Translations under genes and position numbers: made by a program
Part shown: positions 5,604 through 21,900 of the stretch, piece by piece
How the letters are laid out: the number at the start of each line of letters is the position of its first letter
Numbering within the stretch: the stretch's first letter is position 1
Assembly (NCBI GenBank): GCA_001789205.1
Contig: MFYT01000005.1
Coordinates: 12,481 to 76,480 of the forward strand
Length of the DNA stretch: 64,000 bases
Direction of reading: 5' to 3'
DNA from: Candidatus Raymondbacteria bacterium RIFOXYA2_FULL_49_16
GTDB lineage: Bacteria; Fibrobacterota; OXYB2-FULL-49-7; XYB2-FULL-49-35
The notes under the pieces: model-generated
Seen by the model: only the letters and a program-made list of their open reading frames with translations
What the model was told of the DNA's origin: nothing
The model's database searches: none

Positions 5604-6332
5604 TTATGCTTCTCCGAACGCGGTCAACTGGCCAATCATTGACCGGACAAACATTTCAAAACTTAAATCAGAAGCTGGCTCTGCAAATTCACCGTTTATT
5701 CCGTTGGTTTTTGATGAAAGAATAAACGATGACACTGAATAGTGTCTCTCACGGACGAGTTTTCTGCAAAAAAGTTCGTACCGTTTCGCGTATGATGCGC
5801 CACCGAATTCCGGAAACACCTTGAAATGTGGCTCCTGAACTTTAACCAAGCTGTTGGAGCGTTCACAGTCTTCGAGCATGAAAAAATATCCGAGCCAGGG
5901 TTTTATGGTTGCATTGAACGCGCCTTCCCGATATGCGGTCCAAAGATCAAGAGCGCTGCCCATGGCTTCTTCGGTTCGGTTGTTAAAATTGTTGCCAAAA
6001 GATGGTCCTACCTGGGATTTTGCTTCAAGAGCAAGCAGGCGTTGACCATTTTTCACCACAAGCAGATCCCACTCTTTAGTAGGACGAAAAAAACCTGGCA
6101 GCTGAAGGGAATGGTTGGAATATATATTGGCTTTTGGAATACCTGCTTCCAGAATAATGTCAGATAAAAGATGAATTATACCATCCATCTGAGCGCCACC
6201 GGTCACAGCGCTACGAGCTCCCTGATCGCTGGCCCCTTGTTCTTTCTGTTTTTTCCCTTGAGCTGCCCGAGTTTGCCAGTAGAAAGCTATAGCTTTTTTT
6301 AGTTTGTCCTGTAAGTCATTGATGTTAAACAT
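5604..6332 (-). CDS. PaeR7I/XhoI-family type II restriction endonuclease
   Basis: Type II restriction enzyme family whose known members (XhoI, PaeR7I) cut CTCGAG. Seen: KEWDLLVVKNGQRLLALEAK, a PD-(D/E)xK nuclease core with Asp and Glu-x-Lys, then SQVGPSFGNNFNNRTEEAMG, the family hallmark, and DLWTAYREG. At 242 aa it is full length, and the ATG has a good AGGAGA ribosome-binding site. It is the leftmost complete gene of the cassette array, and only a methyltransferase fragment follows it. CTCGAG sites do occur in this window (for example near 24462, 48439 and 55049), so an active enzyme would need protection from another methylase, or the enzyme must be inactive. Specificity is inferred from family. 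Confidence 0.88.
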   Translation of the reverse strand: MFNINDLQDKLKKAIAFYWQTRAAQGKKQKEQGASDQGARSAVTGGAQMDGIIHLLSDIILEAGIPKANIYSNHSLQLPGFFRPTKEWDLLVVKNGQRLLALEAKSQVGPSFGNNFNNRTEEAMGSALDLWTAYREGAFNATIKPWLGYFFMLEDCERSNSLVKVQEPHFKVFPEFGGASYAKRYELFCRKLVRERHYSVSSFILSSKTNGINGEFAEPASDLSFEMFVRSMIGQLTAFGEA

Positions 6333-6562: not shown

Positions 6563-6730
6563 TGCTTACGGGTTGCGCCATGCTGAAGTTGCCGCCTATA
6601 ACATTGCAGAAGTATTGGGCTATCAAGCGGAGTCTACGGAGCTTGATAGAACGATACTTCTGCCTACCCCTAGTCCAAGCGGCAATTTGGGGCGGGGCTT
6701 TGACCGCCCAGCATGGGGCTGTTGTTTGTC
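6563..6730 (-). repeat. attC-like hairpin site between the ankyrin and PaeR7I cassettes
   Basis: Nested inverted repeats read from the sequence: 6578-6585 with 6709-6716 (CCATGCTG/CAGCATGG), 6589-6595 with 6679-6685 (TTGCCGC/GCGGCAA), 6606-6615 with 6654-6663 (10 bp, perfect) and 6621-6628 with 6641-6648 (8 bp, perfect). The outer box 6724-6730 reads GACAAAC on the minus strand (R''-like), and the other end 6563-6569 reads GTAAGCA (a decayed R'-like box). The architecture, a core box, a spacer and a structured imperfect hairpin, is that of integron attC sites, although the core boxes do not fit the GTTRRRY consensus exactly. The rest of the 6333-6901 gap shows no gene. Confidence 0.65.
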
Positions 6731-6901
6731 TGTTGCCGGGTAGCTGTCTTCGCTTTCTTCTCGCGCGCATCCGTATTTTATTGTATTTTGGTAAAACGGT
6801 ATCGAAAAAAATCATATTCTTCTGGAAACCGTGCTTCGCATGGATATGAAACCTATGCGCTCATCAAATAAAATGATTCGCGCATAGGCTAAGACGAACA
6901 A

Positions 6902-8284
6902 CTATTTACCCTTGCTTTCAAGATATTTCTGAATTTCTTTAAATCCGAGTTCCTTTGCATATTTCGAAGGGGAAAACTTGCCGCCAGCCATAAGACATGC
7001 CCCTTTTTCTGCCGAACCTTTACCCATTTTCCCAGTTCGAGCTTTCATTTCCATTTGATGATTCATCCAGAAATTATTTGCATCGGCAAGCATTTTGACC
7101 ATTTCCATATTATTATTCTCGATTGCAAAATATATGGAAGATTTCTTTGAAAGGTCATATGCACAGCCATTGGGAGCAACGAAATAGCCGCTGATACCTT
7201 CAGTCTCCTTGCAGCCAGCGGCTAATAATGCCTTTGCGACCTCAAGATGATTGTATATTACAGCGTATGAAAGTGCGGTAAAGCCCTTTGCATACTGTCC
7301 AGTTGTATTATCCAGATCCCAGGTTTCATGGGTCACATCGGCACCACGCTCAATAAGAAGATTAACTAATGCTAAGTCCCCTCTTTTTGCAGCCAGCGAA
7401 AGTGCCGACTTTTTGTCCTTGGTCAGGTGGTTGACATCAGCTCCGGCTGCGACAATCGCTTTTGCCGCATCCAGCTTGCCGGAAACAAGAGCAACTAAAA
7501 GCGGTGTATAGTCAGATGCATTCTTCTGGTTGATATCTACATTGGCGTTTTTCAATAATTCAAACATTTGCGCCGGTGTACCGTTAGCAGTAGCAGGTAA
7601 GTCAGCATACCAATCTGGTACTTTCAATCCAAAGGATTCCATTGCCGGTTTACCATTTTTATATTGTGCTTTCCTTTCCTCCGCAGTCATTGAAAAAGCG
7701 GCAAAATTGTGCGCAAGATTCGAATTGTCGGCGGATGAGCTTTGGATTTTGGCTCCTTTTTCAAGAATTTTTTGCAGACAGGGCACACAATTGGTCTGCT
7801 GCACAGTTACCTGAATAGCTGTTACTTCGCTCGGTTTAGAATTTGCAAGCGCGCCTTCCCATGCTTTTATTGCTGCTTCGTTGGCTTTTTTACCTTTCGC
7901 TTTTTCAGCAGCTATGAGTGTCCTGAAGGTAGTCCCCGGATCAACCTTGCCAGGCTTATTGGGATCAGCGCCTTTCTGTAGCAGCATTTCAACAACATTT
8001 ACGGAATATGAATTGCATGCTGATATCAGAGCTGGATAATTCCCTCCGTTAGGATCGGCTCCTTTATCGAGAAGTAACTGGACGATTTCAGGCCAGAAAA
8101 AAGCAGATGCTATAGGAGAATTACCATCTGCGCCAATCTTATTTACATCAGCACCAGCATCAATTGTTTTTTTAACGGCTTCCAAATTACCCTGTTTGCA
8201 GGCTGATACCAAATCGGTGTTGGGGTCTGCAAATGAAATGCAGAAGAAGGTCGATACGAATAGAGCTATAATCGCTTGTTTCAC
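6902..8284 (-). CDS. Secreted ankyrin-repeat protein
   Basis: Protein of 460 aa with a signal peptide (IIALFVSTFFCISFADP, cleavage probably after SFA) and two blocks of ankyrin repeats: about residues 22-120 (GNLEAVKKTIDAGADVNKIG, VQLLLDKGADPNGG, VEMLLQKGADPNKPG) and about 245-370 (AAKAIVAAGADVNHLT, ALVNLLIERGADVTHE, EVAKALLAAGCKETEG). Between the blocks is a segment with a CVPC pair. Translation starts at a GTG with AAGGAA upstream. It is a single-gene cassette: its start and end are flanked by matching inverted sequences around 8405-8464 and 6724-6790. The role is unknown; periplasmic protein-protein binding is the most that can be said. Confidence 0.8.
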   Translation of the reverse strand: MKQAIIALFVSTFFCISFADPNTDLVSACKQGNLEAVKKTIDAGADVNKIGADGNSPIASAFFWPEIVQLLLDKGADPNGGNYPALISACNSYSVNVVEMLLQKGADPNKPGKVDPGTTFRTLIAAEKAKGKKANEAAIKAWEGALANSKPSEVTAIQVTVQQTNCVPCLQKILEKGAKIQSSSADNSNLAHNFAAFSMTAEERKAQYKNGKPAMESFGLKVPDWYADLPATANGTPAQMFELLKNANVDINQKNASDYTPLLVALVSGKLDAAKAIVAAGADVNHLTKDKKSALSLAAKRGDLALVNLLIERGADVTHETWDLDNTTGQYAKGFTALSYAVIYNHLEVAKALLAAGCKETEGISGYFVAPNGCAYDLSKKSSIYFAIENNNMEMVKMLADANNFWMNHQMEMKARTGKMGKGSAEKGACLMAGGKFSPSKYAKELGFKEIQKYLESKGK

Positions 8285-8457
8285 AGTAGTTCCTTTCAGT
8301 TTCAGGATTAAAATTATTGGTCTACGGGTCTATTTTCTGTAAGAAAATATAACAATTGAGGGCTTCCTCCTTTCCTGTGGCCTTAAAGTTGGTGGTTTAG
8401 CTTTTCCATATTTTATTCTGCGCGCGAGTCTGGTATTTCTTTCAGCTACCCGGTAAT

Positions 8458-8579
8458 TGCAAACGTGTGCCGTGTTACGACGTGGCCAGCGTTAGAAAAC
8501 GTGACGGAAATTTGCGACACGTTTTATTCAGACGCTGGCCATGTGCGCGTTTCGCGCGAACGTAACGCGGCTGTTGGGT
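8458..8579 (-). repeat. attC-like hairpin site between the DinD and ankyrin cassettes
   Basis: Inverted repeats: 8469-8479 with 8561-8571 (10 of 11 bp), 8483-8492 with 8532-8541 (TGGCCAGCGT/ACGCTGGCCA, perfect) and 8496-8503 with 8518-8525 (AAAACGTG/CACGTTTT, perfect). The minus-strand left box at 8573-8579 is ACCCAAC, which fits the R'' consensus RYYYAAC exactly; the far box at 8458-8464 is GTTTGCA, which keeps the GTT but not the purines. Total length of about 122 bp is within the range of attC sites. The remaining part of the 8285-8645 gap carries no recognisable gene. Confidence 0.7.
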
Positions 8580-8645
8580 GCATTTAGCTGGAATGCCACC
8601 ATGTTTCAAATTCTTGTTTGCGCCGTTTTTTCTTGCACCGAATTT

Positions 8646-9500
8646 TTATTCATCCAGCATTAATTTATTCGGAGTTTTTTTAAGCTTTTTTAACTGTTCT
8701 CGTTCAACTTCACTGATATTTTTACTTGGAACAGGTAAATCTTCCGGCATTGTACCACCCACTCGCTCAATCGTTCCTCGTACTTCTTTCCCAACGATAA
8801 AGTGGATTTCATTAGCGGCATCAGCGGTTGCCGCCTTATCTTTTTTTAATTTATCATCAGTCTGGGATATTCTAAACAAATTGGCAATTAATTCCGTACT
8901 ACTCATATAATCAAGAATCCTGTCCTGTTTCTTCAGCCCCTTCTTTTTATGAATATCTTCGACCTTCAATCCGCCATACAGTCCCATATAACCGGCATTC
9001 TGAAAAGTCGCATACTCTTCATTGCTGATGACACCTGCATTATGGGCGGATTCGGCAAGCATCTGGTTCCATTGCTTGATATCACCCCTAATGACCAGTC
9101 GTTTGTTGTCTTCATCAAGCTGATTAAAGTAGTCGGCGACTTCCTGTCGTCTTGTTTGAATTGCAAAATATGTTTGACCTAAGGCAATGACCTCTTTCCG
9201 TGGGTCTCCATTCTGAACGATTAAATAACAAGCATAACGGGTGAGTTTAAAATCAGCAATGGGTTTTGAAGTAGCACCCGCTTCTACGATTTTGCTGACC
9301 TCAGCAAAATGGTCTTGAAGCGCATATCCACTATTCTTACAGGCAAGCATAGCCCTGTCTAAAACTTTTGCAAAATTCCGCCATTGTACATATTCAAGTA
9401 CAGGCGCAAGCTCCCTGGCATACCAGAATTCAGCGCCATCATCCGAAACATGTTTGATTGCTTCAAATGAAACGTATTCTTTTGCTTTTAAATTACTCAT
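8646..9500 (-). CDS. DinD-like protein (DNA damage-inducible protein D family, BRO-N domain)
   Basis: 284-aa protein with an N-terminal BRO-N/antirepressor-type domain (AEFWYARELAPVLEYVQWRNFAKVL, with TRYACYLIVQNGDPRKEVIA) typical of DinD. The C-terminal part is helical and charged (NEIHFIVGKEVRGTIERVGG). E. coli DinD is an SOS-induced inhibitor of RecA-mediated strand exchange; that role is carried over by family only. It has an AAGGTGG ribosome-binding site and follows a 245-aa unknown protein by 43 nt in the same cassette. It is more AT-rich than the housekeeping genes nearby. The family call is strong; its role in this array is not known. Confidence 0.85.
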   Translation of the reverse strand: MSNLKAKEYVSFEAIKHVSDDGAEFWYARELAPVLEYVQWRNFAKVLDRAMLACKNSGYALQDHFAEVSKIVEAGATSKPIADFKLTRYACYLIVQNGDPRKEVIALGQTYFAIQTRRQEVADYFNQLDEDNKRLVIRGDIKQWNQMLAESAHNAGVISNEEYATFQNAGYMGLYGGLKVEDIHKKKGLKKQDRILDYMSSTELIANLFRISQTDDKLKKDKAATADAANEIHFIVGKEVRGTIERVGGTMPEDLPVPSKNISEVEREQLKKLKKTPNKLMLDE

Positions 9501-9543
9501 GCTGCCACCTTTTTAAAACAGGCATTCGTTTTAATGACCGTTA

Positions 9544-10281
9544 CTATTTAGTCAATATTTTAATAAAATCCCATAATGCACTGGCTATCAGATTTAATGC
9601 TATTGCAATTATTCCGGTTGTTAAAATTGAAAATAATGGATACTTTTTAATAAAAAGTTCAATTTGCAATATTTTTGGTTTACATATTTTTTTCAATTCA
9701 CTTTCAAATACGGATATAACATCCTCTTCAATTTGTCTGGTTTTAAATTCTGCTTTACAAGAGTTGCATAAAATCGGTTTTTCCGTGTTATAAATTATAT
9801 CTTGCTTATCACCATTTAAATCAAAAAGGCACCCTCTTGTATCCCTGTGTACAAGCGAATAAACATCGTCGGTAGAAATAATTTTAAATAAACGCTTAAT
9901 TGCGGATGCTTCATAAATTTGCTTTAAAATAAAGTTATCCGCAGAAATAAATTCTCTGGACAATAAGTCGGTAATTCCATGTAAGGAAACTACAACGCAA
10001 TTTGATCCAATTCGGTGCATGTAGAAATTGTCTATGAACCTATATGCCATTATTCCCATTGCTAAATCAGACTCAGAAGGGCATGTTATGAGATTTGAAA
10101 GTTGATCCTTTTCAAATTTCTGATCCAAATAATCATCATCAACTTTACATTCCGGTAAATGTTCAATCGTTTGAATATTAGTTATTTCGAATATTTTTAA
10201 TTTCCACTTTTTGATTTTATTTACATTAAATAAATTGTTCGCATGCCCTAAAAGTATTAAGGATATCTTCATTTTTTTCAT
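9544..10281 (-). CDS. Unknown protein with C-terminal membrane segment
   Basis: 245 aa, strongly AT-rich and not recognised. The start has a clear TAAGGA ribosome-binding site. The first 140 residues look like a soluble alpha/beta domain (ISLILLGHANNLFNVNK; ITCPSESDLAMGIMAYRFID). A Cys pair in ILCNSCKAEFK near residue 170 could bind metal, though only one CxxC is visible. The C-terminus has a hydrophobic helix (LFSILTTGIIAIALNLIASA) that probably anchors it in the membrane. It is the first gene after the leader copy at 10400, co-transcribed with the DinD-like gene. The design of a sensor-like domain plus membrane tail next to a DNA-damage gene suggests defence, but that is speculation. Confidence 0.7.
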   Translation of the reverse strand: MKKMKISLILLGHANNLFNVNKIKKWKLKIFEITNIQTIEHLPECKVDDDYLDQKFEKDQLSNLITCPSESDLAMGIMAYRFIDNFYMHRIGSNCVVVSLHGITDLLSREFISADNFILKQIYEASAIKRLFKIISTDDVYSLVHRDTRGCLFDLNGDKQDIIYNTEKPILCNSCKAEFKTRQIEEDVISVFESELKKICKPKILQIELFIKKYPLFSILTTGIIAIALNLIASALWDFIKILTK

Positions 10282-10382
10282 ATTTGTCCTTAAATTACCG
10301 CCATGTTGGCGGCTGATATTCTCTTGCGTGCAATGTTTTTAATAATTTTTATTGTCTTCGGCGCAAACCTATGAATTCCATT

Positions 10383-10406
10383 CATTCCGGCTTATTGCAT
10401 CCCAAC
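10383..10406 (-). repeat. Cassette start box (R'-like) of the 245-aa/DinD cassette
   Basis: On the minus strand this begins GTTGGGATGC and opens the cassette. Its first 24 nt are an imperfect inverted match to the cassette's other end at 8573-8595 (shared GTTGGG, then TGCA-T-AGC-GGAATG). In a circularised cassette these two ends would pair as the outer stem of one attC, as expected for integron cassettes. This is direct sequence comparison by eye. Confidence 0.6.
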
Positions 10407-10802
10407 TATTGTATCGATGAACATTTTGTATACCTTCCGGGGCATAAATACGAACATCCCCCTATCTTCTACGGCATGCAAAGCGAATACAATAAATGTA
10501 CCTATTCCATGCCTGCTCTGTCAATATTCCCGTTACTATTGTATCACTATTGCCACACAATTGTCGCCTTTGTTATGTTTTACCCGGTCATACAATGCCA
10601 AACCTCAAATACTGCCGCATAATCGCTGTCTGTGTCCTTTTTACCGGCTTTTTGCTTGCAGGGTGGGGCGCAAGCATGTCCGCTTTTTCAGGCTTTGCTA
10701 AAAACAGGTACGAACATTCAACAGGAAAGTTTCTTCGTAAATTCTCGAACACGGACCAGACATACTACCATTCACTTGCCATTGTCTTGACAGTGGGAAA
10801 TT
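10400..10802. repeat. Leader copy A (attI-like duplicated block)
   Basis: This stretch is a diverged copy of 13876-14275. Shared words include CCTATTCCAT, GTCAA-ATTCCCGTT, GCCTTTGTTATGTTTTACCC and the first two-thirds of the membrane-protein gene. It lies immediately upstream, in minus-strand direction, of the 245-aa/DinD cassette, just as copy B lies upstream of the Mrr cassette. The similarity stops at about 10802 inside the membrane-protein frame. It explains most of the gap 10282-10764. By position it plays the part of an attI/leader region, but no integrase gene is attached. Confidence 0.75.
10495..10524 (-). promoter_or_regulatory. Putative cassette promoter (Pc-like), copy A
   Basis: On the minus strand: -35 TTGACA (10519-10524), 18-nt spacer, -10 TACATT (10495-10500). 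It points into the 245-aa/DinD cassette, whose boundary is about 90 nt further on. The same hexamers with the same spacing occur in copy B while the flanking bases have diverged, which supports function. Confidence 0.5.
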
Positions 10803-10846
10803 GTTTTACGGCCTTGTCAAAATCGCTTTCGAGCAAACGGTCTTGA
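10595..10846 (+). pseudogene. Truncated copy of the 104-aa membrane protein gene
   Basis: The frame starts MPNLKYCRIIAVCVLF and matches the intact gene at 14067 for about 68 residues (GWGASMSAFSGFAKNRYEHS, then STGKFLRKFSNTDQTYYHSL), after which the sequence becomes unrelated and ends at 10846. The second membrane helix is lost. The 3' side overlaps, antisense, the last codons of the RhuM gene, so the break marks the junction between the two sub-arrays. Expression as a functional protein is unlikely. Confidence 0.75.
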
Positions 10847-11820
10847 ATAACCCGGTATTTTTCGTACTCGCCTTCGGCGAATGACTTGGCTATTTCGACG
10901 CTCACTTTGCCCGGATTATCCAAAATTTCTTTTTCGTTGAATTTTAGGAACGCATCGAGTTTTTCAACCCAATCTTTCATAAACATTACCTTGCGGTCAT
11001 TGGCCTGCATTTCGGCGTAATCCAGATACATGGTAATAATACGGTTTAGGCCTTCCAGTTCTTTTTCGTTCAGGTAGTTCTTGGCAATACTCACATCGGC
11101 TTTTCGTATCTGACCTTTCGGAGCGTTTTTCCATGTGGAAAGGCCCATATTCTGTTTTTCACTGCTTGCCCTGCTGTAAATAATTTCCGCGGCAGTTTGG
11201 CGCGAAATTGCCCAGTGCATTTTATTCTGCACCGTGGCAAAAAAGCGGTCTGTAGTTTCGCTATCAGGATCGTAATCAGCGCTGCACTGTGCGTATATGT
11301 CGGTGATTTTCTGGTAAAAACGGCGCTCGCTTGAGCGTATATCCCGTATACGGGCAAGTTGTTCTTCGAAGTAGTCTTTGCCAAAAATGTTGTTCGGGTT
11401 TTTAAGCCGTTCATCATCCATGGTAAAACCCTTGATGATGTATTCTTTAAGGCGCTCCGTTGCCCAGATACGAAAATGTGTTGCCCTTGTGGAATTGACC
11501 CGGTAACCGACAGAAATTATTGCGTCAAGATTATAAAACTCTATGTTTCGTGTAATCTGCCTGCCACCTTCGGTTTGAACTTGTGCAATTTTTGCACAAG
11601 TTGCCGATCTCCGTAACTCCTTGCTATCGTATATGTTACGCAGGTGCTTTGTAATGACACTTCTTTCTACATCGAACAACTCAGCTATCTTTGCCTGGCT
11701 AAGCCATACGGTTTCGTTATGCAAAAATATTTCAACCTTAACCTTGCCGTTAGGCGTAGTGTAGAGCAGAAATTCGGTGTAGGAATTGTTGGGAACTATC
11801 GCATTTTTCTTTTTAGGCAT
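10765..11820 (-). CDS. RhuM family protein
   Basis: 351-aa protein of the RhuM/virulence-protein family, found widely in pathogenicity and defence islands; biochemical role unknown. Seen: the N-terminal winged-helix-like part (VWLSQAKIAELFDVERSVITKHL), the invariant FYNLDAIISVGYRVNS, FRIWATERLKEYIIKGF, and C-terminal KADVSIAKNYLNEKELEGLN. The start codon overlaps the stop of a 67-aa gene (TAATG), so the two are coupled. The last ~12-15 codons lie inside the leader-copy-A homology and read antisense to the truncated membrane-protein gene, so the native C-terminus has probably been replaced. Confidence 0.88.
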   Translation of the reverse strand: MPKKKNAIVPNNSYTEFLLYTTPNGKVKVEIFLHNETVWLSQAKIAELFDVERSVITKHLRNIYDSKELRRSATCAKIAQVQTEGGRQITRNIEFYNLDAIISVGYRVNSTRATHFRIWATERLKEYIIKGFTMDDERLKNPNNIFGKDYFEEQLARIRDIRSSERRFYQKITDIYAQCSADYDPDSETTDRFFATVQNKMHWAISRQTAAEIIYSRASSEKQNMGLSTWKNAPKGQIRKADVSIAKNYLNEKELEGLNRIITMYLDYAEMQANDRKVMFMKDWVEKLDAFLKFNEKEILDNPGKVSVEIAKSFAEGEYEKYRVIQDRLLESDFDKAVKQFPTVKTMASEW

Positions 11821-12023
11821 TAGGGAACCACCAAGTTTTTTGCTTCATCTTTTTCAGCTTCAAAACGAGATTGCAGACTATCGAATGTCTTTTCATTTCT
11901 GATTTTTATCGGTTCATACCAATATTTATTATCTCTTTTGCCTTTGTAGAAGCACAAATAAGTCTCGTTAATAAAGTTATCTTCAGCGGCAATAAGCATA
12001 AAATAGCCTTTTCTGAATACCAT
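11820..12023 (-). CDS. Small unknown protein upstream of RhuM
   Basis: 67 aa, not recognised: an acidic/aromatic sequence containing AAEDNFINETYLCFYKGKRD and a charged C-terminus. Its stop overlaps the RhuM start by one base (TAATG), which supports translation. An internal ATG at 11999 has a better AAAAGG ribosome-binding site and would give a 59-aa product starting MLIAAEDN. It opens the second cassette, about 110 nt from the attC-like site at 12131. Confidence 0.5.
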   Translation of the reverse strand: MVFRKGYFMLIAAEDNFINETYLCFYKGKRDNKYWYEPIKIRNEKTFDSLQSRFEAEKDEAKNLVVP

Positions 12024-12130
12024 TTAGAATGGTTTTCGTATTCAGGCACCCCCCAATTTATTTTCATTTCTCTTTTTAGAAATCGGTTTTACGCCACTGC
12101 TCAATTGCATTTGAAAACGTGCAGCATTTA

Positions 12131-12238
12131 CACCAACGGCCCGGGCATACAAGACGTTTTGCTGTAGGCTTTGCGGAAGCAAAATGTGCCGCAGGCCAAG
12201 GGAGGCTTTGCGACCGTCGCTTGTATGCCCTGTTAGCG
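12131..12238 (-). repeat. attC-like hairpin site between the Mrr and RhuM cassettes
   Basis: Perfect 11-bp inverted repeat 12143-12153 with 12220-12230 (GGGCATACAAG/CTTGTATGCCC), inner pair 12157-12162 with 12179-12184 (TTTTGC/GCAAAA), and outer 12126-12132 with 12241-12247 (ATTTACA/TGTAAAT). Minus-strand boxes are CGCTAAC (12232-12238, R''-like) and GTTGGTG (12131-12137, R'-like). The spacing of box, 5-nt spacer and stem is that of an integron attC. The gap 12024-12388 holds this site and no gene. Confidence 0.75.
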
Positions 12239-12253
12239 GCTGTAAATATGAAC
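12232..12253 (+). repeat. Cassette end box of the Mrr cassette (22-bp inverted match with 13861-13882)
   Basis: The 22 nt beginning GTTAGCGGC and ending TAAATATGAAC are the reverse complement of 13861-13882 with only two mismatches. The pair brackets exactly the Mrr and 139-aa genes. In a circularised cassette they would form the outer stem of a single attC. Confidence 0.75.
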
Positions 12254-12388
12254 GCTACCATAGTGTAATTGTTTTCCGCCGCCTCTTCGTCTTTTTGTTT
12301 TCTGTCTTCATGGTGCACATTTCTTCAGCGCATGGATGCGCTATTTACATCTATTCTTCAGTCTCGCATAGTCGTTGTAATTTACAGA

Positions 12389-12808
12389 TCACTTTTTATT
12401 GTTAATGAATTTATAAAAATTACGACAGGTCGAATCATAAGCGGTAATATATCTCTGTTGGGTAAATTCATTCGGGTCCCAACAATGAGGTATTGGCCCT
12501 CCTGATTCATCAAGGTAGTCTAATAGTATTTTTTTCGCTGGCCACGTTCTTTGATTTTCATTTTCATGAATTCTTCTTATAATTTCCGAACCAAAAACGC
12601 CTAAATTTGACATGTATTTTTTTATTGTGCTTCTTGCCAATTTATTGCCTACCAAAAATTCGATAAATGGGATAAATTCAAGAAGAATTCTATTTCCTAA
12701 ATCAATATCTTCTTTAAACCCCATCCAATGCTGAGGCCATTCATAAAAGTCCTCAAAATAAAGCAATGGTATTTTATTTATTGATGAACCACTTTTATCT
12801 ATCGACAT
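12389..12808 (-). CDS. Unknown 139-aa protein downstream of mrr
   Basis: Not recognised. A helical protein with aromatic motifs (YFEDFYEWPQHWMGF) and a helix-rich middle (ARSTIKKYMSNLGVFGSEII) faintly like the N-terminal SAM-like domain of tyrosine recombinases, but with no catalytic domain and too little to claim homology. It follows mrr by 31 nt in the same cassette. There is no clear ribosome-binding site before the ATG at 12808. It may be a partner or immunity protein for the nuclease, or simply a passenger. Confidence 0.6.
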   Translation of the reverse strand: MSIDKSGSSINKIPLLYFEDFYEWPQHWMGFKEDIDLGNRILLEFIPFIEFLVGNKLARSTIKKYMSNLGVFGSEIIRRIHENENQRTWPAKKILLDYLDESGGPIPHCWDPNEFTQQRYITAYDSTCRNFYKFINNKK

Positions 12809-12839
12809 ATTTTTAATTCTTATTTCAGTTCTGTGTCGC

Positions 12840-13745
12840 TTATTCTTCAGTAAAATAATCAGAATCTATTTTGTTAATATCATAAGTTGTAACTGTTGAT
12901 ACCCCAACCTTATTGTCAATCATTAAGTTTGCCAGTAATTCACCATCAATTAAAATGATTTTACTCTCAATTCTTGAAACGTAATCTATAGCATCCTTGG
13001 AATAATTCGAGGTTGTAATAAATATTCCTTTTTTTGCATGATGAAGTTGTAATGCGCCGGCAAATTTCTGAATTTCAGGTCGTCCGACACAACCTTCCCA
13101 CCTTTTTGCTTGAATGTAAAGAATATCAAGGCCTAATTTGTCTTCTTTGATAATTCCATCAATTCCTCCATCTCCACTTTTACCTATAGCTTCACCAGCG
13201 TCTTTTCTTGAACCACCATAACCCATTTTTACCAAGAGTTCAATAACAAGTCTTTCAAAGAAAGTCGGGGAACAACTTTTAATGTTCTGAATAATTTCGT
13301 TTGCTAAATTTGATTTCAATCTCAAATAAGCAGATTCAATAGACTCCTCTGGAGTTTCAGAAGTTGTCTCAACTGCAACAGGTTCTTCTTTATCCTCTTT
13401 TCGAACATTTTGAAATTCAAGGAATTCCGGAAATTGTCGTAGAAATGACGCATCAATTTTTTCCGGCTTTTTTGATAAAATATTCATTCCTCTTTCAGTA
13501 ATCTGAAAAAAACCTCGCCTGACAGGTTCAAGTAATAGAGCTTTTTTTAGGTAGGTTCTTGCCCATCCGACTCTATTCTCAAATATCGGCTGGCTACCGC
13601 TGGGAAGTAATTGTTTCTTATCATCATCATTGAGTTCAAATTTCAATTCCAAATGCTCGATAGTTTCCCGAAGCGAATGTTCTTTTTTATCCGCCAAAAA
13701 TTGAAGAAGTGGGAGCATTATTGATTGATAATCCGGTATTGCCAT
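12840..13745 (-). CDS. mrr: Mrr-type restriction endonuclease
   Basis: Type IV restriction enzyme family that cuts modified DNA. The N-terminal winged-helix (Mrr_N) spans about residues 5-95 (LPLLQFLADKKEHSLRETIE; GWARTYLKKALLLEPVRRG). The C-terminal PD-(D/E)xK-like nuclease spans about 160-285 with FFERLVIELLVKMGYGG, GKSGDGGIDGIIKED and the catalytic QAKRW, followed by GRPEIQKFAGAL and GIFITTSNYSKDA. At 301 aa it is full length. GAGGAAATTT precedes the ATG. It is the first gene behind leader copy B, the best-expressed position if the array behaves like an integron. Confidence 0.92.
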   Translation of the reverse strand: MAIPDYQSIMLPLLQFLADKKEHSLRETIEHLELKFELNDDDKKQLLPSGSQPIFENRVGWARTYLKKALLLEPVRRGFFQITERGMNILSKKPEKIDASFLRQFPEFLEFQNVRKEDKEEPVAVETTSETPEESIESAYLRLKSNLANEIIQNIKSCSPTFFERLVIELLVKMGYGGSRKDAGEAIGKSGDGGIDGIIKEDKLGLDILYIQAKRWEGCVGRPEIQKFAGALQLHHAKKGIFITTSNYSKDAIDYVSRIESKIILIDGELLANLMIDNKVGVSTVTTYDINKIDSDYFTEE

Positions 13746-13860
13746 AAATTTCCTCTCATCATTTCTTCGCCACCTGGACGGTGGCTTGTTTTCTCTTGTG
13801 CGCCATTCTTATTTGTTTTAACTCTATTTTTGTCTTTGGCGGCGGCTATCAGTCTTATTC

Positions 13861-13882
13861 GTTCATATTTATTGCCGCTAAC
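13861..13882 (-). repeat. Cassette start box (R'-like) of the Mrr cassette
   Basis: On the minus strand this begins GTTAGCGGC and is the first sequence after leader copy B. It is the 22-bp inverted partner of 12232-12253. The junction with the leader, around 13882, corresponds to the recombination point in an attI/cassette junction. Confidence 0.65.
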
Positions 13883-14275
13883 TAGTGTATTTATGAACAT
13901 TTCGCATCTTCCTATGCATAAACCCGCCCCCCCTCTCCTGCCTGACATGCAAGCTGAACACACTAAAAGTACCTATTCCATACCTACCCTGTCAACATTC
14001 CCGTTCCTGTTTTTATCACTATTGCTGCATAGCTGCCGCCTTTGTTATGTTTTACCCGGTCATACAATGCCAAACCTCAAATACTGCCGCCCAATAGCTG
14101 TCTGCGTTCTTATTGCCGGGCTTTTACTTGCCGGCTGGGGCGCAAGCATGTCCGCCTTTTCAGATTTTGCCAAAAACAGATACGAACATTCTACAGGAAA
14201 ATTCCTCCGCTCTGTCTCGCGCAAAGACCAGACATATTACCGTTCACTCGCCATTGTTTCAGCTGCGGGAAAAGC
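13876..14275. repeat. Leader copy B (attI-like duplicated block)
   Basis: The intact version of the leader: from the Mrr cassette boundary, through the promoter at 13966-13995, into the 104-aa membrane protein gene. Copy A at 10400-10802 resembles it over its whole length with many scattered differences, so the duplication is not recent. Both copies head a run of minus-strand cassettes. The gap 13746-14066 is fully explained by this block and the cassette start. Confidence 0.75.
13966..13995 (-). promoter_or_regulatory. Putative cassette promoter (Pc-like), copy B
   Basis: On the minus strand: -35 TTGACA (13990-13995), 18-nt spacer, -10 TACTTT (13966-13971), pointing to the mrr cassette. The same -35 and spacing occur in copy A with TACATT. 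The -10 is weak, so strength is uncertain. Confidence 0.5.
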
Positions 14276-14766: not shown

Positions 14767-15960
14767 TTATGCAAGAGTTGGCGGTTTCTGAAACCTGAAA
14801 TTCGGCCTCTGGAACGTATAATCATTCTTTTTAAGTTCCGCAAACCGTTCCCGTGCGTACACCAGGACCTCCTCGGCCCAGGCTTTGTTCTCATCCACGC
14901 AAAAGATGCGCCAGAGCAGATCGTCTTTAAATTGCGCTAGGTCTGTTCCCTTGTATTCGTCCCAATATATCGCAAGGCAATTCAGGGCGGTTTCGCGCCA
15001 CCGCGCGGCAACAGTGGCGGGGTCTGCGCACAGCGCGTCAAGATGGGCGAAATACGCCGCAAGCTCGTCACGCGCAGCCCCTTCCAGCAAATAGGGCCGG
15101 TGTTCCGGATGAAGGGCAATGCGCGCGGGAATCCGCTCGACCGCCCGCACACCATCTTTTGCAATAGTGCACTGGAGAATGAAGGAGTCGAAACAATGCA
15201 CGCTGTTGGACTTGAGATACGGATTCGAGTCTACATCAAAGAGAAAATTTCCCAGACTGTAAGCGATCCATCCGCGTCCATACTTTTCAATACCCTGCGG
15301 CACATGCGGGTGATGGCAGAGGACCAGGTCAGCGCCCGCATCGACCAGCGCGCGGCAATAGGCTTGGCGCGGGACCGAAGGAGTCTCCCTGAATTCAATG
15401 TCCGCATGCACACTGACCACCAGCACGTCCACGCTTTGCCTGCACGCGGCAATGCGCTCCTTCGCTTTTGCGAGGGAAAAATACGCCGGTCCCGGAGCGT
15501 CAACGCCAAAGGTGTAGTTGCAGTCCTCAAGAAAACCGAGAAACCCCACTGAACAGCCCTTTTTCTCAACCACCGCCAGTCTGTGCGCGCTATCAGGGTC
15601 TTCGCCAGCGCCGCACACGGCAAATCCCCCGGCAGCAAGGGCCTTTAGGGTATGGACAAGACCGGTTGCGCCCAAATCGAGGGCATGGTTGTTGGCAAAA
15701 TTGACAACAGTGAATCCCGCGTCCTTTAGCGCCGCGAGCGCTGAGGGCGGCGCCCACAGGCCCGCGGGATCCAGTTTCTCGGAAGGAAACCCGGGAGGAA
15801 GAACAGGAGATTCGAGGTTACAAAAAGCAATGTCAGCAGCGCCAAGAACATGCCGCACCTTCTCAAATGCATACCCAGGACCGTGGCAATCCAGGGCCTT
15901 TGCCGCGTCCCCGGCAAAACAGACATCGCCAACCACACTCAGTGTCAGAAGAGGCGTCAT
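14767..15960 (-). CDS. CapA-family protein (PGA_cap metallophosphatase-like)
   Basis: 397-aa protein of the CapA/PgsA family, a calcineurin-like metallophosphatase fold tied in some bacteria to poly-gamma-glutamate capsules. Motifs seen: VVGDVCFAGD, FCNLESPV, NFANNHALDLG, VSVHADIEF and DLVLCHHPHVPQG with YSLGNFLFD. No signal peptide is visible. Its start overlaps the stop of the 3001-aa surface protein gene by 4 nt (ATGA), so it is the last gene of that operon. Whether it acts on an extracellular polymer connected with that surface protein is unknown. Confidence 0.88.
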   Translation of the reverse strand: MTPLLTLSVVGDVCFAGDAAKALDCHGPGYAFEKVRHVLGAADIAFCNLESPVLPPGFPSEKLDPAGLWAPPSALAALKDAGFTVVNFANNHALDLGATGLVHTLKALAAGGFAVCGAGEDPDSAHRLAVVEKKGCSVGFLGFLEDCNYTFGVDAPGPAYFSLAKAKERIAACRQSVDVLVVSVHADIEFRETPSVPRQAYCRALVDAGADLVLCHHPHVPQGIEKYGRGWIAYSLGNFLFDVDSNPYLKSNSVHCFDSFILQCTIAKDGVRAVERIPARIALHPEHRPYLLEGAARDELAAYFAHLDALCADPATVAARWRETALNCLAIYWDEYKGTDLAQFKDDLLWRIFCVDENKAWAEEVLVYARERFAELKKNDYTFQRPNFRFQKPPTLA

Positions 15961-18900
15961 TTCATCATCACCATTTTAAGGGTTTTCACATACCGGCCCG
16001 CCTGTATACGGTACACGTACACGCCCGAGGCCACATCGCGGCTCCGCGCATCCCTGCCGTTCCAGGCTATCTTGTAATACCCGTAGGTATGGAACTTATT
16101 TTCCACCAGACGCGTGACAAGCCGCCCCTTGAGGTCGTAGATATCAAGCGTCACACGTCCGGGTTCCTTTAACTGGTAGTTGATGGCAGTGGCCGGATTA
16201 AAGGGATTGGGGTAGTTTTGCGCAATGGCCGTGGCCGCGGGCAATTCACGCGCAGTACCGCTGTGCTGACGGACATAGTCCATTGATCCGGCAATGACCG
16301 CAAGCGAAACGTCAGGTTTGGCCCCTGTGGCAAAAATCGGGATTTCGGCCTGTTTGCGCATATCGACAAGAACATTGCCGTCCGGAACAAGCAAGAACAG
16401 GTTCTCGTTTTCCGGGACACCTGCGATCCCGTCTGTTGTCAGCATGTAGCGCACAGTCTTTGCGGACGACGGCTGCGCGGAAAGGCAAAGCGGCCAGGTA
16501 TTACCGTCCGTCTCGCTGTTCCGGTAATCAGACATATAGTACCGTGACGCCCACTGCCGCCATTCCGGGTGCGGAATCGATACCCTGAATTCCTTGAGCA
16601 GCGCTGGCGGTCCAATATGGTCAAACGCATTGTCGCGTCCGTCAGTCGCCAACCCGGTCTCGCCAAGCTCAATGGCGTCGGTCCATGATCCCTGGCTAAA
16701 TGAAAACCGGAGATTCCACGACCCAGGACCAGAGCACTGTTTTGCAAGGCTGTTGGTCCCTGGTTGCAGTGAGGGGAAGAGAATAGTGTCTGGCGTGCTG
16801 GCAAAAACCCAGTATCCATGATAGGGCCGTATGGAATCAGTTGGCGCATATGATTCGTCAGCGCTGTTGTACGCATAAAAGGCGCGCTGGACCGTGTTTG
16901 TATCAAGGACAACATCAGCCGCGTTTACAGTAAAGGCAAATGGATTACCCACCTGGTTCCATCCCTGTCTGAGCGCAACCGGAAAAGCCTGGGTAAGACT
17001 GTCCGCGGTAACCAGGGGCGTGGAACGGGCTGACCCGAGCGCAAGCGCCTGCGCCTGTCCCTGTTTGGAATAGACCCAGACAGCTGTGCCGGGCGCCATG
17101 GCGAGAAGCGAGGCAGAACCACCTGGTTCGTGGTCAATATAGACACCGTTATCAGCGCCCGAAGCCTGCCATCTGCCAATACGCCAGTCGAGGGTATCGC
17201 TGGTAATAAGGCTGGCAAAAACCGAATCGGGCGATGGCGTATCAACACTGAAGGGCAGAGAAACCATGGTAAACCGCGCCGCGGGAACCGTTCCCTGGGG
17301 AACAGATGCTGTGGCAAGGGTTTTGCCCACAGTCCGGTGCTTGCAAGCCGCGCTTTGCAGGCCATCGGACACTGTCAGCCAATATTCAAACCCATAGTCC
17401 GCGTTTGTCACAAAGGCCGAAGGAATGGTCGCGCTGAAAGAGGCTGCGCCTGATACTGTTGCCTTGGTGATGGAAAGCGCAATTGCGGTTGCGCCTGGTT
17501 CACGGTACAGAAGCGTGATTGCGGGATTGGGGATATTCTCAGTGACTGTCCCGTACACGCGATACGAGCTTGTCACTGAATCAATGGCAACCGCAGGCGC
17601 TGTGGAATCGAGGCCAAGCGCATACTGGGAGAACGAATGCAGCCAAGCGCACACATATCCCAGCCTGTCCAGAGAATCTAAGGGGAAAACCGCTTGCCAG
17701 GACGCGCCCTTTGCACTTCGTCTGAAAATCATGAGATGAGAAGCTGATCCGGAAAATAAGGAGGGAACGGGAAGCGAGAGCAGCGCGGAAAAACCCGAAT
17801 CCGGACCTGTGAACGAATAAATAGCGCCCACCATTTCAATAGTGTTGGGCAGGGTATCATCAGCGGCTGGGACCAGTTTCTGGATCGCTACACGTTCATT
17901 GTCAAACCCCGACTGTGGTGGAAAAAACAACCGCACCGTGTCCCCATTGTCGGCCAGAAGAATGCGCGTGGTATCCGCGGCAACGATAAATCCGCTCGAA
18001 GCCGTGACATTGACGGTAAGAACGAAGCTCAGATACGTTGTATCAGCGCCATCAAAAGCGAAAAGCCGGATGGTACCGTTGAACGCGCTGTCCGCGAAAA
18101 AGACAAGCGCATACCGCGAGCCTCCCAAGGCAATGACCCGCATGGAGGAGACCGGAGCGCCAAGGACGCCGACAGCGTCAAAAGTGGCGTCATCGTCATC
18201 AGTGACGGTGAATTCTATGCGCACACTGTCGACGATTGTGATAGTGGTGTCGGCTGCGCCGGCGAGGACCGGCGGGTCGTTCACCGGTATCGCGGTCGCG
18301 GAAAAGGTGATGGTGTCAGCATATCCATAGCCGTCGTCGACCATGATCCGGACAAGCACGTCGTTTGCGGGATACTGCGGGTCCCACGTAAACAAACCAT
18401 TGCTGTCAATGGCCATGAAAAGACTGTCGGGATTGGCGGGACGGAGAATTGTGTAATAGAGCTGCTGTCCGTCAGCGTCGGAGGCCACGATTTGCAGGCT
18501 GTATGCCGAATCTTCCACAGCCAGGATATCATTAGCGCTATTGGCAATGACCGGAGCTGCTGTGTTGTAAATTACACGCAGCGTGTCGCTGGGTGTGCTG
18601 GCATTGCCCACTTCGTCGCGGGCAACCAGCCAGAAGAGGTTTTCACCGGTATGGAGCGGCACATCCACGATATCGACCGTGTCGCTGATAAGGGAAGCCA
18701 TCTCCTTGATCAGCGCTGAATCGCGGTACAGGTCCAGGGACGCGCCCTGCGTGGCAGACGCACGGAGTGTGATTACATCGCCGGACACCAGCGTGTCCTG
18801 CGCGGTCAAAAGCGCGGGTACTGCCGGCGGCGTCACGTCGACATAAAACCGCCATTCGAGCGTATCAGCGTTGTTCGCTTCGTCGGAGGCGACTATCTGG

Positions 18901-21900
18901 ACATAGTTCCACCCCTCGTCGAGGTCCGCAGAAGGCCGGAAGGTGACGGTGCCCGCGGTCCGGTTAAAGACCACGCCAGCAGCTGGGGATAAATTGACAA
19001 GCAGTCTGAGAGAAGCTGAATCGATGTCCGACGACGCATCGGACACGGTGACGCTGATTTCGGGCCGCGGATCGCTGGTCTTGGAGTTGTGCGCGGGCAT
19101 CATACCCGAAAATGATGGCGGTACATTATCGACATACGAGGAATCGGCGAAGAACTGGACTGAGGTGGTGGTCAGGACATTGCCAGCGCGGTCCGCCGCG
19201 ATCACGGCAATGGTATGGGTGCCGTTGGACAATACGGCTGTGCTGCCGGGAATTGCCCTTCCCGCAGCGTATACGGTGGCGATTGAATCGCCATCGAGCA
19301 GCAGGACCACGGTGGCTGAATCAATGCCGCTGCCGGAATCGCTCACTTGTGCCGCAATCGACGGCTGGAACGAGGTGGTCTCGGCCGCAGCAGGACTCAG
19401 AGAGACCAGATAGGGCGCTTTGGAATCACGTACAACGGTAATAGGTGTTGTGGCAACGCTCTTGTTGCCCGCACCATCGACCGCCCTTAGACTGATAGCA
19501 TTAGAACCTTCGGCAAGGTCCACCCCCGTGACATTGAAAGAACCGGATGCATTTGCCGAGCCAGTATCAGTGACCACCGCGAGCATGAGAACTTCTATTT
19601 TGGCCCGCGCCTCGGCAGTACCGCTGATGGAAATCGAAGCGTTCTTGGTCAGCGATGGAATGCCAGTGACCACCGGCGCCGCAGGAGCTGTCGCGTCAAT
19701 GACAAACGACCAGCCCTGGGTGCGGCTGTTGTACAGCGCGTCATATGCCTTCAACTCGACCGAGTACGTGAGACTTTCGGTCAGTGCGACTGTCGGCTGA
19801 TAGGAAATACGGCCCGCAGCCGAGTCAATGGTGTATGACACTGGTGTGTTGTCTAGCATAAGTACTGTTGAATCGTACGCAATGCCGCTCTGGTCAGTGA
19901 CAATGGCGGAAATGGCGGGCAGACGCGATATGATGGTGCCCGTGGGTTGATAGGCGGTTATCTGCGGCGGCGTCTGGTCCGTCCCCGCTAGGTTCGTGGT
20001 GAATTCCGAGGATTGGGTTTTTGTATTACCTGCTAAATCCGCGGCCACAACCACAATACGGTACAACGTGGAATCAACGAGATTTGTCTGAGGCTGCCAG
20101 CTGATAATGCGCGTGGCCGGCGTATAGGTCACCTGCGCGGGCACGGACACTGTGTCGTCGAGGTCAACGTTGATGACATGGAGCGCGCACATCGCGGCCC
20201 TGATGCCCGATGCGCTATCAAAGAGTGTGGCGGAAACAAGCGGCGTGGCAAACGTCACCGCCTCGCCGTTAGCAGGAGAGATATTTGAAATTTCAGGCTG
20301 CCGCGTGTCGAGCACCACGGTCATGGCCGCGCTTTTCGTGCTGACATTGCCCGCGGTGTCACGCGCCTCTGCTGTTATCCGGTTTTCTCCCTCGGTGAGG
20401 GTGAGTGATACAGTGAAAGTGTCGTTGGTTCCTGTGGCAGCGCTGCCAGCAGCTACGGAATTCCGGAATATAGTCACCTGCGACCGCTTCTCCGCAGTGC
20501 CCATGATCGTGATGTTCGACGAATTCGTAGGCGTTGCAACCTGGAAGACCACAGGTGCAAGCGGGGCGTGCATGTCAATGCTGAAGCTCCAGGTGACCGA
20601 GTCAATGTTCGCGTTGGATGAGAGGTCAGCGGCAACGGCCTTAACCGTATGTCTCCCATCGCTCAGTGTTGAACTGGTAAAACTCACCTGGCTCGAAGCG
20701 AACGTATGGGAGACCGCGGCGCCGTCCAGCTCCATTCTGATGCTTGCCGGATTGACCCCGCTAATATCCGACACTTGTACGGAAATGGTAACAGAACCGG
20801 CGTTGATCGTGGTGTCTGGCCGCGGTGTTCGTTGCGAAAAGACAGGCGGGGCCGTCTCGGCAGTCAACGTATCGACAAACAGGTGTATGAGCGCGGTGTC
20901 CGAGACATTCCCGACCAAATCCTGCAGGACCAATGTAAAAGCGTGGAGAACGCCATGGGCGAGCGGATGGGTAACGTCCTGGTAGGTAAAAACGTTTCCC
21001 GTATAGCTGATGGACGAGGCCGGAATGCGCGTACCGTCCATAAATCCTTTGACAGAATCGGGGTTAACGCCCGCGCCGTTGCTGTCGGAAACCGTTAGGG
21101 CGATAATGGGCGTTGTCACCCCGATGGTGTCGCCTGAATCGGGCGAAGTTGAAATCAGATGAGGCGCGATATTATCCATAAAAACGGTGACAGGAGTGCT
21201 TGCCGTGCTGGTATTGCCCAGTGAATCGATCGCCTTTGCGGTCAGGGAATTACTACCATAGGTCAGGACCACGCTGTCAATGGAGAATGACCCGCCAGTG
21301 CCCGACATGGTCGAGGCGATGGGCGTTGCGCCGCCATTACGGTACAGGTCAACGGTCGCCAGTGGAGAAGTGGTCCCGATAACCGTGATAAATACCGCTT
21401 TGGTGGGTGAGGCAATAGAGCCGAGTACAGGAATAGACGGCGGATCTGAATCGATAAGAAACGACCACGCCGTGTCCGCGCTGTTGTGGTTTAACGAAGC
21501 GTCGGTCACATAGAGGCTGCACCGGTGCACGCCTTGGGCGGGATTGGTCGAAGGAGACCAGGTAATCAGGCCTGTTGCCGGGGTGAACGAATGGATCCGT
21601 ACCGTTCCATCGACAAACAGTTTGATGCTTGCCGCGTCAATACCGTTCTCCAGGTCATTGGCGATTGCCGAAATCTGCGGACGCGGCGCAATAACGGAAT
21701 GCAGCGGCTGTACGCCGGAAATGACCGGAGGGATGTTGTCATTTGCAGACTTGTCAACATAAAACGCGGTTGAATCCCATAGCGATGAGTTTCCTGCCTG
21801 GTCAACGGCACGGACTTTCAGATAATGCCATGCTTTGTCCGTAAGGCTCAGAACCATAGTATAGATCAGCCGGGTACCGTCCCAGGTGGCCGTCTTCTTA

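Follow-up and report, generated by a model that had tools for sequence, protein, structure and literature searches.

The ends of an integron cassette pair with each other, and in most cassettes this self-pairing reaches 9-11 consecutive nucleotides (PMC2727003). The conserved sequence of the attC recombination site is limited to AAC and GTT, and the unpaired bases of described attC sites lie on the L'' arm (PMC2727003). Clusters of attC sites without an integrase are also known and are termed CALIN (IntegronFinder papers). Word searches of PubMed Central, a library without most subscription papers, returned no account of long or outer attC stems. The units described here resemble integron cassettes in that each is a gene plus an attC hairpin bounded by AAC and GTT, the R box at the 5' end is complementary to the R'' of the same unit, unrelated genes are arrayed mostly on one strand, and the attC sites have homologues in IntI-bearing genomes. 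They differ in that the pairing of their own ends covers about 22 nt, interrupted by a fixed 2-nt loop, and includes a third block, against the published 9-11 nt (PMC2727003).

In the window, the 64,000-nucleotide stretch analysed, all of the recognisable genes between 5.6 and 13.7 kb lie on the minus strand and encode an XhoI endonuclease, an ankyrin protein, DinD, an uncharacterised protein, RhuM, a further uncharacterised protein and Mrr. Several of these proteins matched PADLOC models for defence proteins, either known or candidate. Hairpins are found between Mrr and RhuM, between DinD and ankyrin, and before XhoI; an Rfam scan gave no match. For comparison we drew on G006, a genome from another family of the same phylum, and on G018, from the same genus as G006, and built a covariance model (R1) from seven attC sites of these two genomes without the window sequence. 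A finder that looked for hairpins only was too strict and missed most sites.

The Mrr cassette, including its attC body, spans 12138..13882 (-) and was recognised from Pfam Mrr_cat/Mrr_N, its end match and the fold of the attC body at 12138-12231. It carries the gene of an Mrr-type restriction endonuclease (12840-13745) and a 139-aa ORF without known function (12389-12808). The 5' end (13860..13882, -) is made up of box1 at 13874-13882 (R box GTTAGCG plus GC), a fixed mismatch at 13872-13873 (AA) and box2 at 13860-13871, and the 3' end (12232..12254, -) of box2 at 12243-12254, the mismatch at 12241-12242 and box1 at 12232-12240, which ends in AAC (R''). Further in, box3 (CCGCCGCC) has a 5' copy at 13838..13845 (-) and a 3' copy at 12276..12283 (-). 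The first-pass annotation had called these ends inverted copies at 20 of 22 positions, which understates the match: 12232-12254 and 13860-13882 are complementary at 21 of 23 positions, and the sole mismatches form one 2-nt block. When every GTT-started end was compared with every AAC-ended end lying 250-4000 nt away, this pair scored 19, while a score of 18 was reached in 0 of 100 dinucleotide-preserving shuffles of the whole 64 kb and in none of 1000 when the 9.5 kb array alone was shuffled. The attC body that separates the Mrr cassette from the RhuM unit (12138..12231, -) forms a hairpin with partial homology to the G006 attC at C2:66215. Its BLAST likeness to the attC sites of relatives is 82.5% over 40 nt only, and model R1 gave no match to it.

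The DinD cassette with its attC body occupies 8465..10406 (-), matches NCBIfam DinD at 385.9 bits (gene at 8646-9500) and has a homologous cassette in G006:C32. Boxes 1-2 lie at 10383..10406 (-) in the 5' end and at 8573..8595 (-) in the 3' end, and box3 (GTTTGCGCCG) at 10359..10368 (-) and 8616..8625 (-), respectively. The attC body (8465..8572, -) was matched by model R1 at 8460-8580 (23.2 bits, E 2.4e-4; region fold z -3.3) and is 81% identical to G006:C32:43295-43376. As had been noted at first pass, the DinD ends are inverted copies with few gaps; the pair 8573-8595 / 10383-10406 scores 15 with one gap. A match of this level is expected by chance 0.05 times per shuffled 9.5 kb array and 0.28 times per shuffled 64 kb, so that it is suggestive in the unanchored scan alone and strong with the ends fixed by the hairpins, where other cassette ends all score lower in this stretch. 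The cassette is common to the window and G006, with proteins 88% identical and cassette ends 82-88% identical. Relative to its G006 homologue, the window copy contains an extra 831-bp stretch between the conserved ends that holds a 245-aa ORF with no family match (9544-10281), situated between the conserved 5' end of the cassette and DinD. Because the homologous cassette lacks this ORF, cassettes can acquire (or lose) genes between their ends. The G006 site at L065 4795-4992 (G006:C32:43295-43490) is a hybrid attC in which the 5' part comes from one class and the 3' part from the DinD class, probably through a deletion between neighbouring sites.

The ankyrin cassette with its attC body (6570..8464, -), recognised from Pfam and from its end match, carries an ankyrin-repeat protein gene at 6902-8284. 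Boxes 1-2 are located at 8443..8464 (-) in the 5' end and at 6724..6746 (-) in the 3' end, with box3 (CTCGCGCGCA) at 8419..8428 (-) and 6760..6769 (-). Its attC body (6570..6723, -) was found by model R1 at 6565-6728 (46.6 bits, E 2.4e-11; region fold z -3.0) and has a degenerate R', with GTAAGC in place of GTTRRRY. An inverted match had been reported near 6724-6790 and 8405-8464, and with the ends anchored we recover it as the pair 6724-6746 / 8443-8464, with a score of 14 and one gap. About 0.14 matches of this level are expected per shuffled 9.5 kb array and the pair does not stand out in the unanchored scan; once anchored the match is strong, as 0 of 33 other cassette 5' ends score as high in the same stretch. 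The similarity claimed for the Mrr ends thus exceeds that of all the shuffles, and the similarity claimed for the DinD and ankyrin ends is modest against shuffles when unanchored and strong when anchored. Beside the array lies the XhoI-type restriction endonuclease gene (5604..6332, -; Pfam XhoI, 303 bits), whose cassette status is uncertain because the R' that precedes it is degenerate.

Although the array resembles a CALIN in having three attC sites and no intI in the genome, it differs in its long-armed ends and in being partly eroded, with RhuM truncated, one R' degenerate and host sequence partly duplicated inside it. The RhuM unit (10404..12137, -; 5' end GTTGGTG at 12137; RhuM gene at 10765-11820, Pfam RhuM) has lost its 3' end and attC and is fused to a partial copy of host sequence; a scan anchored on attC sites found no 3' partner for its 5' end. 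The host sequence adjoins the array at 13880..14272, and the second, partial copy, at 10404..10800, is about 80-82% identical to it. The 5' ends of the Mrr and DinD cassettes are joined to these two copies at the same base, which suggests a favoured, or perhaps attI-like, insertion site; it is equally possible that a cassette was duplicated along with the sequence beside it. A 3001-aa ORF (15957-24962, -) also lies beside the array.

All three window units share with their own opposite end a further block of 8-12 nt, about 37-50 nt in, and comparison with relatives brings out a common rule. Among the cassettes whose ends align without gaps (n = 15), positions 1-9 and 12-23 covary within the cassette. 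GTT occupies positions 1-3; the two ends agree at positions 4-7 in 13-15 of the 15 cassettes and at positions 8-9 in 10-11. At position 10 the 5' end mostly has A and the reversed 3' end mostly T. At position 11 an invariant A faces G, T or C and matches in none of the 15, whereas positions 13-22 are variable yet match in 12-15. The covariation score is 0.878, compared with 0.18 in shuffles and at most 0.17 with slid partners, and both sides had changed in 18 of 21 pairs. Several of these cassettes were recognised through their self-match, which inflates matching in general and leaves the fixed mismatch unaffected. The third block is cassette-specific (0 of 100000 permutations) and is not visible in every cassette. 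Segments that do not pair are also conserved, such as CTATGGTAGCGTT at the 3' ends, and the full pattern has exact copies in four genomes of four families. The R boxes of long-armed cassettes are mostly GTTGNNN, those of the window being GTTAGCG, GTTGGGA and GTTTGCA. From the alignments, the long-armed rule reads as 9 nt, a fixed mismatch of 2 nt, about 11 nt, a spacer and the third block. What is new here is the second covarying block, the fixed mismatch and the third block; self-pairing over 9-11 nt is already textbook.

The matches join the two ends of one cassette and not the ends that meet in the array. Cassette boundaries were placed mostly by attC homology; array-terminal 5' ends (Mrr and DinD in the window, and C2 73799 in G006) have no preceding attC, and for these the match itself set the position. 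In 13 of 15 long-armed cassettes from G006 and the window, the score between a cassette's two ends is 13-19, and ends meeting across one attC score 4-9; across the hairpins of the window, linear neighbours score 8 and 7 and do not match. The self-match is absent from two of the 15, G006 C2 63932-66206 and C32 48558-43484, which look chimeric or as though they hold a missed site. When partners were permuted over 12 cassettes, the observed total was reached in 0 of 100000 permutations, also without the first 9 nt. In the attC-anchored scan of several genomes, for which most sites were chosen without use of the self-match, 11 of 34 own 5' ends scored at least 14, as against 6 of 1122 cross pairs. 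New self-matching cases came to light in G018, G020, G026, G028 and G036, and for most attC-anchored ends in other genomes no partner was found within 4.6 kb. Modelled junctions fold with a mean of -62.3 kcal/mol as circles and -46.9 kcal/mol in the linear form, the circle junction being more stable than the real linear one in 12 of 12 by 6-26 kcal/mol (p 0.0005). The first-pass proposal that the ends belong to different hairpins in the linear array and would rebuild one attC stem in a circle agrees with these results, among them the comparison with unrelated ends and the folds of circular junctions. The first-pass argument for a mobile-cassette origin is likewise supported within a limit: 9-11 nt of self-match is known from integron cassettes, and the surplus consists of blocks 2 and 3. 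Together, these comparisons show that the circular (or end-paired) form was under constraint at some time, which is not proof that circles form in the organism today.

Judged from sequence, the window units are integron cassettes. This membership is independently supported by the attC covariance model, by homologous cassettes in another family and by IntI in two genomes with such cassettes. Model R1 finds two of the three window hairpins (ankyrin and DinD), on the expected strand, and has matches, some of them weak, in 13 of the 15 genomes searched. By BLAST, window attC sites are 75-87% identical to those of relatives, and a DNA search with the Mrr flank identified three places in G006, all of them stretches of cassettes with the same ends. 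In their folds the window attC sites place AAC...GTT cores around an imperfect palindrome with L''/L' arms, with the exception of the degenerate R' of the ankyrin attC, and R'' and R' of the same cassette are complementary in the circle, over the 9-11 nt described for integron cassettes (PMC2727003). Most long-armed R boxes depart from the strict GTTRRRY / RYYYAAC consensus, which is not disqualifying because AAC and GTT are the only conserved parts of attC sequence (PMC2727003). Alignments of the L arms show spacers of 1 nt and of 4-5 nt in many sites. The unpaired bases of long-armed attC sites are found more often on the L' arm (32 of 45 gaps, versus 13), unlike those of described sites, which lie on L'', and the long-armed sites may therefore not be standard IntI substrates. 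Assigning the attC body to the downstream cassette is disfavoured: the DNA similarity of related sites breaks off at GTT (query position 150 of 176), in favour of the usual polarity.

None of the 12 Phage_integrase matches in this genome (5.4 Mb, 112 contigs) is an IntI, the best TIGR02249 match scoring 121 bits against a cut-off of 265 and leaving model residues 182-233 unmatched, and the array is therefore an integrase-less cassette cluster. It lacks the adjacent intI and attI of a complete integron and has the composition of a CALIN, that is, at least two attC sites with no nearby IntI. Genuine IntI genes are present in G006 (two genes; 452 bits, cut-off 265; 46% identical to IntI1) and in G018 (one gene), and both genomes carry long-armed cassettes; in the stretches read, no IntI lies beside a long-armed array. 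We considered, and dropped, a non-IntI tyrosine recombinase close to an attC in G026:C58 as the enzyme of the cassettes; the adjoining ORF looks IS91-type by eye. On a Thiodictyon plasmid, L152 (about 8473-10915) has an IS91 transposase and tyrosine recombinase pair within an attC-bounded unit whose ends match each other (GTTGAACTAATCCGCTCC / GTTGGACTAATCCGCTCC), and a similar-looking pair lies beside an attC in G026:C58 (L135 2985-5152).

Taken together, the anatomy of the units, the covariation and fixed mismatch of their ends, their homology to the attC sites of relatives and the IntI genes of two relatives make it very probable that the region from 6.5 to 13.9 kb is an orphan (CALIN-type) array of phylum-wide 'long-armed' integron cassettes, which would have moved as end-paired circles through a tyrosine recombinase. 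A cassette comprises a gene and its attC body, and on closure of the circle the 5' end (GTTNNNNNCAAT, box2, box3) would meet the 3' end (box3, box2, ACAGNNNNNNAAC) on either side of that body. The predicted outer stem, about 22 nt long, takes in the R box and is interrupted at positions 10-11 by a conserved 2x2 internal loop, such that the R''/R' stem of the circle would be extended by the 2-nt loop, a second helix of about 11 bp and then a GC-rich third block. The circle would then be a well-folded recombination substrate able to re-insert. Neighbours in the array do not match, and therefore only the inner hairpin would remain there. We infer that the enzyme is a tyrosine recombinase acting on a folded single strand, most likely IntI from related integrons, now or in the past, the tie of long-armed cassettes to IntI being its co-occurrence with them in G006 and G018. 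Read on the top strand the loop is A.A and A.C, and on the bottom strand T.T and G.T; it could serve as a strand marker, given that the extra bases of long-armed attC sites lie mostly on the L' rather than the L'' arm. The long arms may raise the insertion of circles or lower their excision.

The same pairing could act in RNA, if the 5' and 3' untranslated parts of a cassette transcript paired to stabilise or regulate the mRNA and the proximity of attC were incidental. Covariation cannot tell DNA from RNA pairing, the genes of most cassettes are read in the direction from 5' end to 3' end, and counts of G-T-type mismatches outside the fixed loop (5 C/T against 5 G/A plus T/C) do not clearly favour either strand. 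We nonetheless regard an RNA role as quite unlikely, as the pairing begins right at the GTT/AAC recombination boundary and takes in the R boxes that recombination requires, and the G006 cassette C2e has the same ends although its long ORFs lie on the opposite strand. The units also share with terminal-inverted-repeat transposons paired inverted ends around single genes, and have a conserved subterminal motif (CTATGGTAGCGTT) at their 3' ends, which would fit small elements moved by a transposase with the hairpins as remnants. We rejected this very improbable reading on the unit-specific ends: each unit has end sequences of its own, which covary with each other, while one transposase would need shared repeats. 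No transposase domain was found in the window units, and the hairpins that separate them are homologous attC sites.

The end similarity might instead be a relic of cassette birth without a role in movement, either an inverted copy of one end or the result of a gene being put into a pre-existing 'empty' cassette. The 831-bp addition between the conserved ends of the window DinD cassette is in keeping with such a relic, as is L080 2762-2986 (G006:C39, near IntI), a 224-nt apparently empty cassette with no listed ORF that is made up essentially of its two end modules, whose self-match covers about 16 nt. A plain inverted copy is disfavoured because it would not give conserved non-matching segments, and the matched blocks alternate with just such segments (position 11 matching in 0 of 15); we consider a relic quite unlikely overall. 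A point against the long-armed array reading itself is that self-matches are mostly short (7-10 nt) in the canonical cassettes beside IntI in G006 and G018. Those in G006:C39 score 9-10, apart from one that reaches a score of 15 with a gap, and those of G018:C30 have 7-9 nt of self-match by eye. Among control cassettes on other plasmids, usable sites came from the Thiodictyon array only, where self-match scores are 7-11, with one unit at 16. The long arm of the window cassettes and their relatives exceeds the described range; the principle is already known.

How cassettes arise, and whether the free circle is a selected form, are open questions in integron biology. Covariation within the cassette that is absent across the linear site is sequence evidence of past constraint on the end-paired form. 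The simple end rule offers a further means of finding cassettes, and of assigning their ends to each other, when attC sequence does not suffice. More tentatively, and with considerable doubt, the long-armed units could represent a phylum-wide cassette class in which only the circle has a complete recombination site, formed by an outer stem of ~22 nt, the A.A/A.C loop and the third block; the loop could replace extrahelical bases as the strand marker and the arm could bias towards insertion over excision, possibly with a dedicated IntI variant. Long-armed ends provide a testable idea about how the balance between cassette insertion and excision may be biased.
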